Of a stretch of 64,000 nt of DNA, positions 55,659 to 61,461 are shown piece after piece. The notes beneath the pieces are model-generated. The model saw only the letters and a list, made by a program, of their open reading frames with translations, was not told the origin of the DNA and searched no databases. The position numbers and the translations under genes were made by a program. Within the stretch, counting starts at the first letter, position 1, and the number at the start of each line of letters is the position of its first letter. Origin of the DNA: Alphaproteobacteria bacterium (GTDB taxonomy: Bacteria > Pseudomonadota > Alphaproteobacteria > TMED109); NCBI GenBank assembly GCA_022824395.1, contig JAJDZX010000030.1, positions 1 through 64,000 of the forward strand, written 5' to 3'.

Positions 55659-56129
55659 ATGCAGCTCGGAAGCTTTCTTGCTCCTTCAGCCATCGTCCCG
55701 AGACTGACCGTCAACAGCACGCGGCAGCTGCTGCACACGCTTGCCAAGGTCGGAGCCCGCGAAACCGGGCTCGGGGAACGGGCGATCTTCCAGGCTTTGA
55801 TGGCGCGCGAGCAACGCGGCTCGACCGGGTTTGGCCACGGGGTGGCGTTGCCGCACGCGCGTCTCAAGGGGCTTGCCCGAGTCACCGGCGTCTTCGCGCG
55901 GCTGATGCCGCCCATCGACTTCGACGCACCCGACGGCCGCCCGGTTGAACTGGTGTTCTGCCTGCTGAGTCCGGAACGGGACGATGCCCTGCACCTGGCC
56001 GCACTGGCGACGATCTCGCGACGACTCGGCCGAGCGAGTTTGCGCCGGGTGCTGCGCGGCGCGAACGAGGCGGATGCGATGCACGCGCTGCTGACGGATC
56101 TGGAGCACACCCAGCCCGAGGCCGCATGA
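55659..56129 (+). CDS. ptsN: PTS IIA-like nitrogen regulatory protein PtsN (EIIA-Ntr)
   Basis: The 156-residue phosphocarrier is the output of the nitrogen phosphotransferase system and usually affects potassium uptake and stress genes. The phospho-acceptor His lies in GFGHGVALPHARL. LKVG-like conservation is partly altered (RETGLGERAIFQALMAREQRGSTG is typical). ATG 55659 is preferred because the longer frame (from 55578) adds unlike sequence. It overlaps hprK by four bases. Confidence 0.92.
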   Translation: MQLGSFLAPSAIVPRLTVNSTRQLLHTLAKVGARETGLGERAIFQALMAREQRGSTGFGHGVALPHARLKGLARVTGVFARLMPPIDFDAPDGRPVELVFCLLSPERDDALHLAALATISRRLGRASLRRVLRGANEADAMHALLTDLEHTQPEAA

Positions 56130-56563
56130 CCCGATCCGGTACGTGCGTCGCGGTTGACGGCCGTGGCGTGCTGCTGCAGGGGCCGAGCGGTGCCGGCAAG
56201 TCCGATTTGGCCCTGCGCCTCATCGACGGTGGCGCCGAACTTGTGGCGGACGATCGCGTCGTACTCGAATCGCGCGCCGGCGTGCTCTCGGCCTGCGCAC
56301 CGCCTGCGCTCCGGGGGCTGCTCGAGGTCAGGGGACTCGGCATCTTCCGCCTTCCGTACCGAACCAGCGTTGCGGTGACGCTGATAGCCCGGCTGGGCGG
56401 CGCGCACGACGACCGTCTGCCGCCGCCGAACACGACCACGATCCTCGGGCATGAGCTGCCGGCCATCGAGCTCTCGGGGGAGCGCGCGTCGGCCCCCGCG
56501 CGGGTTCGCCTGGCGCTCGGCACGGCGGTATCGGTGGCCGGGGTGATGGGAGATGCAGCGTGA
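56126..56563 (+). CDS. hprK: HPr kinase/phosphorylase, short alphaproteobacterial form
   Basis: The 145-residue protein has only the C-terminal kinase domain. Walker A GPSGAGKSDLALRLI is near residues 19-33, followed by LVADDRVVLE and LLEVRGLGIFRLPY (the K2-like signature). The N-terminal domain of Firmicute HprK is absent, as is normal for this class. It phosphorylates a Ser on HPr, linking the PTS to two-component control in Rhizobiales. It overlaps both neighbours by four bases. Confidence 0.92.
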   Translation: MTRSGTCVAVDGRGVLLQGPSGAGKSDLALRLIDGGAELVADDRVVLESRAGVLSACAPPALRGLLEVRGLGIFRLPYRTSVAVTLIARLGGAHDDRLPPPNTTTILGHELPAIELSGERASAPARVRLALGTAVSVAGVMGDAA

Positions 56564-57030
56564 GCGAACCGGCCGGTCGTACCGACGAGAAGTTCGATGG
56601 CGTCGGCATCGTGGTGGTCACGCACGGCCGGTTCGGCGCCGAGCTGGTTGCCGCAACCGAGCACGCGGTCGGCAGCATGCCGGCTGTCCGCGTGCTCGAG
56701 GTCGGCCCGACTGACGACATCGAGGAGCGCCGTCGCGCCATTCGGCAGGCGGGCGACGCGGTGAACGCCGGGCGCGGCGTCATCTACATCGTCGACGTGT
56801 TCGGCAGCACGCCAGCCAACCTCACCCGATCGGTCGTGCAGGACACGAAGCCGGACGGGCAGGCCATGATGCTGGCCAACCCCAATCTGGCGGTCATGTA
56901 CAAGCTCGCCGAAGCCCGCGGACGCGACATGCCGCTCGCCGATCTCCTGGATACCGCGCGCTCGGCCGGCCGCAAGAACATGCTGGAACTCGGGGAAGCA
57001 CTGCGGGGCGGCCGGGACGCCACCGAGTGA
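56560..57030 (+). CDS. PTS EIIA-Man-type phosphocarrier protein
   Basis: The 156-residue protein has the mannose-family IIA fold, with the acceptor His in IVVVTHGRFGAELV and later VIYIVDVFGSTPANL. No EIIB or EIIC is encoded nearby, so it is a regulatory rather than a sugar-transport component, as in other Alphaproteobacteria (called ManX, PtsM or EIIA-2). GTG 56560 overlaps the hprK stop, and the end overlaps the ptsH start. Confidence 0.9.
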   Translation: MSEPAGRTDEKFDGVGIVVVTHGRFGAELVAATEHAVGSMPAVRVLEVGPTDDIEERRRAIRQAGDAVNAGRGVIYIVDVFGSTPANLTRSVVQDTKPDGQAMMLANPNLAVMYKLAEARGRDMPLADLLDTARSAGRKNMLELGEALRGGRDATE

Positions 57031-57314
57031 ACCCGGCGCAACCGGCCGCTTCCCGGACGGCCGAGATCCGCAACCTCCGCGGTCTGCATGCGCGGGCAGC
57101 AGCACGGTTCGTGAAATGCGCCAGCCAGTTCCAGGCCGACGTCACCGTGCGCAAGGATGAGCTGTCCGCTGACGGCAAGTCGATCCTGGGCCTGATGGCA
57201 CTGTCCGCCTCAATCGGGACCACCGTCTCCATTGAGGCGAGCGGTCCGGAAGCGGGGTCAGCCGTTGCCGCCCTCGGCCAGCTTGTGGACGAGGGTTTCG
57301 GCGAAGAACACTGA
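57027..57314 (+). CDS. ptsH: HPr-like phosphocarrier protein (NPr)
   Basis: The 95-residue carrier passes phosphate from EI-Ntr to PtsN and the EIIA-Man-like protein. The catalytic His is in NLRGLHARAAARFVK, and the kinase-target Ser region DGKSILGLMALSA is intact, matching the presence of hprK. Start GTG 57027 overlaps the preceding stop. The enzyme I gene (ptsP) is not in the window. It ends a seven-gene same-strand run from kdsD with mostly overlapping junctions. Confidence 0.93.
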   Translation: MNPAQPAASRTAEIRNLRGLHARAAARFVKCASQFQADVTVRKDELSADGKSILGLMALSASIGTTVSIEASGPEAGSAVAALGQLVDEGFGEEH

Positions 57315-57456: not shown

Positions 57457-58143
57457 CTACGGCCGAGAAAGCGTGCCCTCCGTCTGGTTCAAGGGATAAA
57501 TGAGGTTCAGCGCCGCAAGGATCGTGATGCTGAATTCCGTCAGTTCTCCCCGCCTCGGGGCGCCGGCTGCCATGTTCACCAAGCCCTCCACGAGCACGAT
57601 CACGAGCAAATAGCCGAGATACTGGTACCGCTTCGGGATGGGTATCCCCCAAGCGTCGAGAAACCGGCGCGCGAAGGCAGAGGCATGGTACAGGGGCTTG
57701 ATCAAACCCAGATACAGCACGAACAGCAGCAATATTCCCTTCGAGAAAATGTCCTTGTTGATCGACACCCCGCCAACGGCAAGGTTGTGGAGATTGATCT
57801 CCTGCTGCTTGTTGTGGCTCAGGAAAAACTCCGAACTGTCGATGGCAAGCAGCCTTTGCCCCCAGGAGATCTCTTCGCCGGCACCAAAGATCGCCAGCAC
57901 CGACAGCACGGCGAGGACCGACCGCTGCCTCCAGTTGAGAAGATGCCTGTATTTCCAGAGCCGGCCCGCCAAGAGCACGGCGACCGAGCCCAGCGCGATA
58001 ACCGTCAACCACTCCAGCAGCCCGTCCTCGGCCGTGTAGACGCTGTGGAAGTAATCGTGGTTCACAAGACTGAGAAACACGCCCAGACCGAACAGGATCG
58101 CAGCGTTGATCAGGACAAACGTTTCGGTTCTATCAACGGGCAT
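57457..58143 (-). CDS. Polytopic membrane protein with EEISWGQR and NLHN motifs, function unknown
   Basis: The 228-residue protein has about five to six hydrophobic helices. EDGLLEWLT (residues 39-47), GAGEEISWGQRLL (87-99) and NKQQEINLHN (111-120) are charged or polar motifs next to membrane helices. Similar motif sets recur in unannotated bacterial membrane proteins that I recall but cannot name. The clustering of Glu, Gln, Arg, Asn and His looks catalytic or ligand-binding. The start at 58143 (MPVDRTE) is chosen over 58176 to keep overlap with the upstream gene to 11 bases. It is the last gene of a three-gene cassette. Confidence 0.65.
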   Translation of the reverse strand: MPVDRTETFVLINAAILFGLGVFLSLVNHDYFHSVYTAEDGLLEWLTVIALGSVAVLLAGRLWKYRHLLNWRQRSVLAVLSVLAIFGAGEEISWGQRLLAIDSSEFFLSHNKQQEINLHNLAVGGVSINKDIFSKGILLLFVLYLGLIKPLYHASAFARRFLDAWGIPIPKRYQYLGYLLVIVLVEGLVNMAAGAPRRGELTEFSITILAALNLIYPLNQTEGTLSRP

Positions 58144-58717
58144 CGCGAAAACGCCTCCAAGCACGACTGCCGGCATGCCACGACGAATACACGAAGGCGA
58201 TCGGATCGATCAGATAATCCAACATGTTATCGCTATCGCCGGCATCATGGCCATGCAACAGCAGCGACAGGGCCGCCCAGACAGCAAGCAACCGGGTGGC
58301 CGCGAATCCGACACACGACACCGCCAGGAATAGCAATCCCAGAGCTGCGTACGGATGGTACCCGACCGCGTAGAGATCAATGGGGCCGACGCCCAATGCC
58401 GAGGGATACATCACGAGACCCAGCCAGAAAATGCACGCGCACAGTCGGCCGAGGTCTTCCTCCGCCACCCACTCAGGCAGGAGGCTCCTTACCGCACAGC
58501 ACCCCGAAATCAACAGCATGCCCACGCTGGGTTCCGCCTGAACCGCGGCAACGAACCCGACGAGAGGAACGTGGTCAAGTTGAATTGAGAAGGCCGTGGC
58601 CACGATGGCTGCAGCGATCCCGAACCTGATGGACCAGTTGTCCGTGTAGCGGGCGGAACAGCAGACACCCAGCGAAACCAGTACGAATGCCCAACCGAAA
58701 GAACCGTATGCGGTCAT
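58133..58717 (-). CDS. Polytopic membrane protein, function unknown
   Basis: The 194-residue protein has about five to six predicted helices, including FGWAFVLVSLGVC, FGIAAAIVATAFSI and LGLLFLAVSCVGFAAT, with few charged residues between them. It ends in an Arg/Trp-rich cytoplasmic-looking tail. I do not recognise a family. Its ATG overlaps the sialidase-like stop by four bases and its end overlaps the next membrane gene, so the three products are made together and may form one complex. Confidence 0.6.
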   Translation of the reverse strand: MTAYGSFGWAFVLVSLGVCCSARYTDNWSIRFGIAAAIVATAFSIQLDHVPLVGFVAAVQAEPSVGMLLISGCCAVRSLLPEWVAEEDLGRLCACIFWLGLVMYPSALGVGPIDLYAVGYHPYAALGLLFLAVSCVGFAATRLLAVWAALSLLLHGHDAGDSDNMLDYLIDPIAFVYSSWHAGSRAWRRFRDAR

Positions 58718-59928
58718 GGTTCCGCAGCGGGACCGCGCCGTATTCGTGCAAGCCAGGTTTCGTTGAACGTAACGTGCTTGATGTATTGACGGTCGTACGT
58801 ATAGGCAACATGGATACGTCCGCTTGAGTCCCGCAATATCGACGGGTAGGAAAAGCGCATCCCGGAGCCGGTTTCGGTACGCTCGATATCGTAAATCCGT
58901 GTCCAGTCGCCCGGATCCTGCTCGGAAACGGCCAGTGACAAGTTGTTTCGCCCAATCTCTGAATGGTTGTAAACCATGAGCGTTTCACTGCCCGCCAGCC
59001 GAATGGCGTCAATTGCGCTGTCGGGATTCGGCAAATTCGAGTGTCGTGGAGAAGTAAAACTCAACCCTGCGTCGCTCGTGCTGACGTAGTGAACACGCTT
59101 CACATTGTCTCCTGCATGCCGCATGAAAACATGCGCGGTCTCCGCGTCCACGGCAACCAGCGCGGGCTGAATGTGACTTCGTCCGCGGGTCAGCCGCTTC
59201 TTTCCCCGGACCGATCCATCGGGATTCAGGTGCAATAGCTCAGCGAACTTGCCCAGCAACTCGTGGTAGACCGGGAGCGCGATGCTCCCGTCCAGCATTT
59301 GGACGGGCCGGCCCTTGACCAACGTACTTACATTGAATGCTGGGCTGCTAACCAGCCGCCTTGCCCGGCCAAACGTTGTCCCGCCATCGCGGGAGACCAT
59401 TGCATTGATCGCACTGCCGGACCATCCACCGAATGAAACACTGACAAAAAAGACCCATACCTGTCCGGCGGCATCACGGAAACCGACGGGATTCCCCAAC
59501 TTCTTGATGTATCTGCCTAATTCTTCAGAGAGCTTCTCCCTATTCATGATTTCCCGGGCGGCTTCCCACTGCTGCTCGTTCGGTGGCAAACGGGCCGTAT
59601 AGATCCCCACGTCACGGGCCCCCTCTCTGCTTCCCCCGTACCAGAACGCCCGGATTCCTCCATCTGCCAGTTCGATCAGGGCCGCGCTGTGCACCATGGC
59701 ACGCCCTCCGGGATCGATGGCGCGTTCCTCCCAGACGGGTTCAGCCTCCGAGTCTCCGATCATGTCAGTTGTGTGGGACCCGGTCCCAACTGCATCCGCC
59801 CGGTAGCCCGGCGCAGCGATGTACGAAGTCACGGATTCAAGCGCAGGCGGCAGGGCAAAGCCCAGGAGCACACCGATGCCCGTAATGGCGAGCAAACGTC
59901 GATTTGTTCTTGAAATAATCCGCACCAT
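58714..59928 (-). CDS. Sialidase-like (BNR/Asp-box) protein, membrane-anchored
   Basis: This is a protein of about 404 residues with a basic N-terminus and one hydrophobic helix (LLAITGIGVLLGFALPPAL), so it is probably exported and anchored. A six-bladed propeller of sialidase type should follow. MVHSAALIELADGGIRAFWYGGSREG has the early Arg region, and Asp-box-like turns appear in SRDGGTTFG and STSDAGLSF. Tyr and Glu candidates occur later. Predicted neuraminidases of this kind are often not proven sialidases. MVRIISR at 59928 is preferred over the longer frame to 59991. It leads the cassette with two membrane proteins. Confidence 0.7.
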   Translation of the reverse strand: MVRIISRTNRRLLAITGIGVLLGFALPPALESVTSYIAAPGYRADAVGTGSHTTDMIGDSEAEPVWEERAIDPGGRAMVHSAALIELADGGIRAFWYGGSREGARDVGIYTARLPPNEQQWEAAREIMNREKLSEELGRYIKKLGNPVGFRDAAGQVWVFFVSVSFGGWSGSAINAMVSRDGGTTFGRARRLVSSPAFNVSTLVKGRPVQMLDGSIALPVYHELLGKFAELLHLNPDGSVRGKKRLTRGRSHIQPALVAVDAETAHVFMRHAGDNVKRVHYVSTSDAGLSFTSPRHSNLPNPDSAIDAIRLAGSETLMVYNHSEIGRNNLSLAVSEQDPGDWTRIYDIERTETGSGMRFSYPSILRDSSGRIHVAYTYDRQYIKHVTFNETWLARIRRGPAAEP

Positions 59929-59962
59929 GAACAACAACTTCACAGATCTTGTGCTTCCGAAA

Positions 59963-59991
59963 AGAGTACAAACGACTTGGGAATCCTTCAA
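59963..59991 (-). promoter_or_regulatory. Putative promoter of the sialidase cassette
   Basis: On the minus strand TTGAAG (59986-59991) and TACTCT (59963-59968) are 17 bases apart, 35 bases before the preferred start. The surrounding 60 bases are AT-rich. Confidence 0.35.
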
Positions 59992-60147
59992 TAAACCCTA
60001 TTCTATAATTGGACCGGCACCCCCCTTCCGATATTCTGCGACTGCCTGTCGCCGCGCGTAAAACGCAGGCAAACTCACGGGCCTGCAGCGCCCCCGAGCC
60101 AGAACCATGACACTCGGGCCGATATACTGCGCCGCTCTCGTGAGGGG

Positions 60148-61461
<1,314 letters not shown>

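Follow-up and report, generated by a model that had tools for sequence, protein, structure and literature searches.

Three overlapping genes of an alphaproteobacterial genus, here called B, M and D, combine what is probably an already known kind of system, a Kdo hydrolase of the KdoH1/KdoH2 type (B and M, as judged by analogy), with a further membrane protein (D), whose addition is specific to this genus. The cassette was analysed within a window of 64,000 nucleotides (positions 1 to 64,000 of contig JAJDZX010000030.1), which contains it in the following form:

58714-59928, minus strand: B, KdoH1-like membrane-anchored beta-propeller of the BNR_2/sialidase superfamily, 404 aa
58133-58717, minus strand: M, KdoH2-like small membrane protein, approximately 7 TM segments, 194 aa
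57457-58143, minus strand: D, membrane protein of approximately 6 TM segments, 228 aa, of a family with the motifs EExSWGQ and NxxxExNxHN

All three open reading frames proposed in the earlier note were found on this strand with the overlaps it had given, 4 bases between B and M (ATGA) and 11 bases between M and D. Its description of the products, an anchored BNR/Asp-box protein outside the cytoplasm and small multi-helix proteins with EEISWGQR and NLHN motifs, was likewise borne out: B matches the Pfam family BNR_2 (E 4.6e-71) and has one N-terminal hydrophobic segment, M and D have approximately seven and six hydrophobic segments, respectively, and both motifs are present in D. The cassette is flanked by HPr (57027-57314, plus strand) on one side and by ahcY (60148-61461, plus strand) on the other. 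The start of B is conserved across seven genomes of the genus, and the start of D at 58143 is an ATG which aligns with the GTG of its relatives and has GGAGG just before it. Each of the seven genomes sampled from the genus has the three genes at the same place and in the same order, and dN/dS, calculated against the window copy, was 0.18-0.33 across the cassette genes (approximately 0.2 for B and D, 0.25 for M). This fixed arrangement, together with the dN/dS values, demonstrates that B, M and D are genuine genes under purifying selection and not chance open reading frames.

The G+C content of the cassette (58-60%, compared with 68% for the window) would be compatible with horizontal acquisition by the genus long ago. 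Along the window, the drop to 58% falls at positions 58001-60000, over the cassette. B and M were absent from the other sampled genomes of the order, which are mostly small and often incomplete, and a search of genome contigs with B gave matches confined to the same genus. Profiles of B, M and D found no relatives on viral contigs, and thus no sign of a phage module, and PADLOC returned no match for the cassette. The host bacterium is probably sponge-associated, to judge by the names of the metagenome bins that hold its relatives. At 56126-57314 the window encodes a short HPr kinase-like protein (145 aa) together with EIIA-man-like and HPr proteins, with no PTS permease in the annotated stretch; this group would fit a regulatory PTS like those of other alphaproteobacteria.

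The analysis of homologues revealed a long-standing linkage between B and M. Matches to the M profile were found in beta- and gammaproteobacteria and in one further alphaproteobacterial family, and every locus fetched around a strong M match has B directly upstream of M on the same strand, usually with an overlap of approximately 4 bases; these loci cover approximately 19 proteobacterial families, and the sole exception (L081) ends at a contig edge. Among 274 gammaproteobacterial genomes, nine carry both B and M, none carries M alone and one carries a BNR_2 protein alone (Fisher p 4.8e-16), the latter being a divergent, weaker relative of B (E 1.7e-40). Pairwise tree distances of B and M are also correlated across 19 families (r 0.76, reached in 0 of 5000 permutations). 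The co-occurrence that the earlier note had proposed to check is therefore found for B and M, but D joins them in this genus only, and the claim that the three genes form one unit holds within the genus (all seven genomes) and not elsewhere, where B-M stands as a pair and D belongs to an unrelated family. One weak match to the M profile (L082, 7346-8134), which by eye resembles an AzlC-type transporter, was taken as chance.

The propeller of B was compared with sialidases of known structure by HMMER alignment. Its C-terminal half aligns with 1eur (2.8e-5) and NanI (2.9e-5), and its N-terminal half aligns weakly with NanB. B homologues share the single N-terminal hydrophobic segment, which is stronger than every later segment in 21 of 22 of them. 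The positions aligned with the catalytic residues of these sialidases are as follows:

58846-58848, minus strand: B Tyr361, aligned with the sialidase nucleophile Tyr (1eur, FSYP versus MSYS), conserved in 21/22
58948-58950, minus strand: B Arg327, aligned with sialidase Arg3 (1eur, NanI), conserved in 22/22
59119-59121, minus strand: B Arg270, aligned with sialidase Arg2 (NanI ...LKLFMRN), conserved in 21/22
59167-59169, minus strand: B Gln254, at the position of the sialidase catalytic Glu (NanI tEC versus QP), conserved in 21/22
59689-59691, minus strand: B His80, at the position of sialidase Arg1 (RIP motif) in the weak NanB alignment, extended 4 residues by register, conserved in 21/22

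The position of the sialidase acid/base Asp is occupied by Glu102 in the weak NanB alignment, and the nearby Asp106 is near invariant too. The comparison of the active site with that of sialidases, suggested by the earlier note, thus has a divided outcome: the Tyr and two members of the GH33 Arg triad (Arg2 and Arg3) are kept, whereas the Arg1 position holds a His (by the weak alignment) and the catalytic Glu is a Gln. All of these positions are conserved in 21 or 22 of 22 homologues. B thus belongs to the sialidase superfamily and has a conserved pocket, but appears not to be a standard sialidase. A second BNR_2 protein was not found in the same genome.

A separate observation concerns one B homologue (L101, 5493-7465, from the 1.5 Mb genome G681), which is still an open frame although Tyr361, Arg270 and nearly all other conserved residues of its pocket have been lost. 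The M gene beside it retains its Asp/Tyr/Asn motifs. This couple is possibly a pseudo-enzyme pair.

The topology of M was worked out, from hydropathy and the positive-inside rule, before the comparison with Kdo hydrolases arose. It predicts approximately seven segments with the N-terminus out and the C-terminus in. The loops at residues 19-33, 76-94 and 182-194 are rich in Lys and Arg and would therefore lie inside, which places the following motif loops in the periplasm:

58358-58408, minus strand: M motif YPxALGxGxxDxYxxGY, predicted periplasmic loop
58202-58234, minus strand: M motif SxNxxDYLxDP, predicted periplasmic loop

The residues predicted on the periplasmic side are S64, Y104-P105-G109-D114-Y116-G119 and S162-N164-D167-Y168-D171-P172. 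The earlier note had allowed that the membrane proteins might match a known unrelated family; in Pfam and NCBIfam, no family was found for M or for D. Weak matches to FA_desaturase (0.02) and to NADH subunit A were below cut-offs or attributable to chance. M was not found on plasmids searched for it. AlphaFold models of M and D built from seven close sequences had pLDDT values of 39 and 42, respectively, and were too poor for use.

KdoH1 and KdoH2 of Francisella novicida are FTN_0495 and FTN_0494 (PMC4688374), which have been annotated as "BNR/Asp-box repeat protein" and "hypothetical membrane protein", respectively (PMC2928790); the former is described as a BNR protein elsewhere as well (PMC6587636). 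This pair acts at the periplasmic face, where it takes off the terminal Kdo (PMC3245313). A Kdo hydrolase is also described in Helicobacter pylori (PMC3245313, PMC12342981), in which Kdo trimming alters sensitivity to polymyxin as well as the ligation of O-antigen (PMC3245313, PMC5371381), and Kdo hydrolase mutants are polymyxin-sensitive (PMC5371381). The architecture of B-M corresponds to that of this two-component enzyme, and the view of the earlier note that no described system has such a composition is thus most likely wrong. We consider it likely that B-M is a Kdo hydrolase of this type, the likeness being judged by architecture and published annotation. According to Zhao and Raetz (2010), KdoH1 reportedly has one N-terminal TM segment and KdoH2 seven, and activity is said to need both. 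Kdo and sialic acid are both 2-keto-3-deoxy acid sugars, which suits a sialidase-like fold with a retained pair of Arg residues.

From the gene pairing, predicted topology, conserved residues and LPS-type neighbourhoods, which the analysis shows, we infer a Kdo substrate, complex formation and hydrolysis. B would hang in the periplasm from its one N-terminal helix, and M would span the membrane with approximately seven helices and expose its conserved Asp/Tyr/Asn motifs on the same side; B and M may therefore work as a single active unit on the periplasmic surface of the inner membrane. This unit would act after Kdo-lipid A has been flipped across the inner membrane and before its export by Lpt. 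It would remove the outer Kdo by a retaining mechanism with a Tyr nucleophile, as in sialidases, with the two Arg residues of B binding the Kdo carboxylate, and such removal could trim the LPS for later modification.

The neighbourhoods of B-M fit a role in the envelope. The window itself contains kdsD, lptC, lptA and lptB, approximately 3-6 kb from the cassette and on the opposite strand; this proximity is weak support for an LPS role, since kdsD-lptC-lptA-lptB is a common gene order in alphaproteobacteria. GT39 proteins (ArnT/PMT-like; Pfam PMT) are encoded directly beside B-M in five families (f194, f278, f270, f214, f207), and LTA-synthase-like transferases of the sulfatase fold (Pfam Sulfatase) in three (f166, f172, f392). 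By reading of open reading frames rather than by profiles, the f166 loci resemble an LPS core cluster, and one further locus (L133) has hldE-, hldD- and lapB-like genes near B-M. The preference of the earlier note for a role in an envelope glycan over nutrition agrees with this setting of the homologues, among LPS and lipid-linked glycosyltransferase genes, and with the result that NeuB was not found in the genome (93% complete).

These neighbours could also mean that B-M is a related two-component periplasmic glycosidase acting on another envelope sugar, e.g. one added by the adjoining ArnT/PMT-like transferase. The position of GT39 directly upstream of B in several families would favour this, as would the LTA-synthase-like transferases in others and the changed sialidase Arg1 and Glu. 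Many B-M loci, however, have neither transferase as a neighbour, and several stand alone; moreover, the architecture described in the literature is a precise match and has Kdo as its substrate, and the pocket of B hardly varies among the families that were aligned, which points to a shared substrate, for instance Kdo. We therefore regard another sugar as a rather unlikely substrate of the family as a whole, while the pairing with GT39 or LTA-synthase-like proteins could mean a different substrate in part of it. That B is a true sialidase, acting on sialic acid of the host (sponge) or of the bacterium itself, is very unlikely: the BNR_2 fold, the conserved Tyr and the two Arg residues would suit such an enzyme, but Arg1 aligns with a His, the Glu aligns with a Gln and the genome has no detected NeuB, and the membrane anchor and the tight pairing with M also speak against it.

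D raises a different alternative, namely that the three proteins make up a single new machine and that it needs D as a subunit. Its 11-base overlap with M, its retention in all seven genomes under similar selection and its invariant polar residues, which are predicted to face the periplasm, all point in this direction. Yet D is missing from every B-M locus that was fetched outside the genus, and D homologues occur without adjacent B or M in other alphaproteobacteria and on Roseovarius plasmids; an obligatory role is thus very unlikely. D is a separate, widespread and unnamed family which is joined to B-M only in this genus. Homologues were found in 16 of 190 alphaproteobacterial genomes (counting the window's own and one congener), and 13 diverse homologues all share, without variation, the motifs EExSWGQ and NxxxExNxHN. 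In D of the window they correspond to:

57853-57876, minus strand: D motif EEISWGQR, predicted periplasmic end of a TM helix
57784-57795, minus strand: D motif NLHN, within the family motif NxxxExNxHN

Hydropathy places E50, E55, E101, E102, N122, E126, N128, H130, N131 and E214 (numbered from 58176) on the predicted periplasmic side. On one other contig (L104, 6459-8230), two D-family genes lie in tandem, with neither B nor M.

Returning to the Kdo hydrolase reading of B-M, D most likely takes part in the same LPS step or acts upon it. More specifically, it is conceivable, if on balance unlikely, that D is a third Kdo hydrolase component gained in the genus, which further modifies the trimmed Kdo-lipid A or regulates such a modification; if so, D would found a new class of envelope-modifying membrane enzymes. 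In either case, its family is a clean and testable one that still lacks a name.

Because the annotation of B relatives reads exo-alpha-sialidase or BNR protein, and neither Pfam nor NCBIfam offers a model for M, a probable Kdo hydrolase may have gone unrecognised in approximately 19 proteobacterial families. If this is true, LPS with a single Kdo would be commoner than is known, and the B-M gene pair would predict it from the genome. In a likely sponge symbiont, Kdo trimming may influence the host's encounter with the bacterial LPS.

Among known relatives, the GH33 sialidases (NanI, NanB and the Micromonospora viridifaciens enzyme 1eur) share with B the Asp-box propeller and the aligned Tyr361, Arg270 and Arg327; they differ from it at His80 (Arg1), Gln254 (Glu) and, by weak alignment, Glu102 (Asp), and B has in addition a membrane anchor and a partner protein. 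The soluble BNR_2 "exo-alpha-sialidases" of rhizobial and other plasmids belong to the same Pfam family (24-31% identity to B), but in the three examined they have no M alongside and lie near a TonB receptor or near transporters and enzymes of the DHDPS family. The KdoH1/KdoH2 pairs (FTN_0495/FTN_0494; HP0579/HP0580), to which the match is made through their descriptions, differ from the cassette by the third gene, D, present in this genus. They resemble it in joining a BNR/sialidase-related protein to an adjacent polytopic membrane protein in an LPS setting: B would correspond to KdoH1 in its single N-terminal TM segment, and M, which adjoins B and has approximately seven hydrophobic segments, to the reportedly seven-TM KdoH2.
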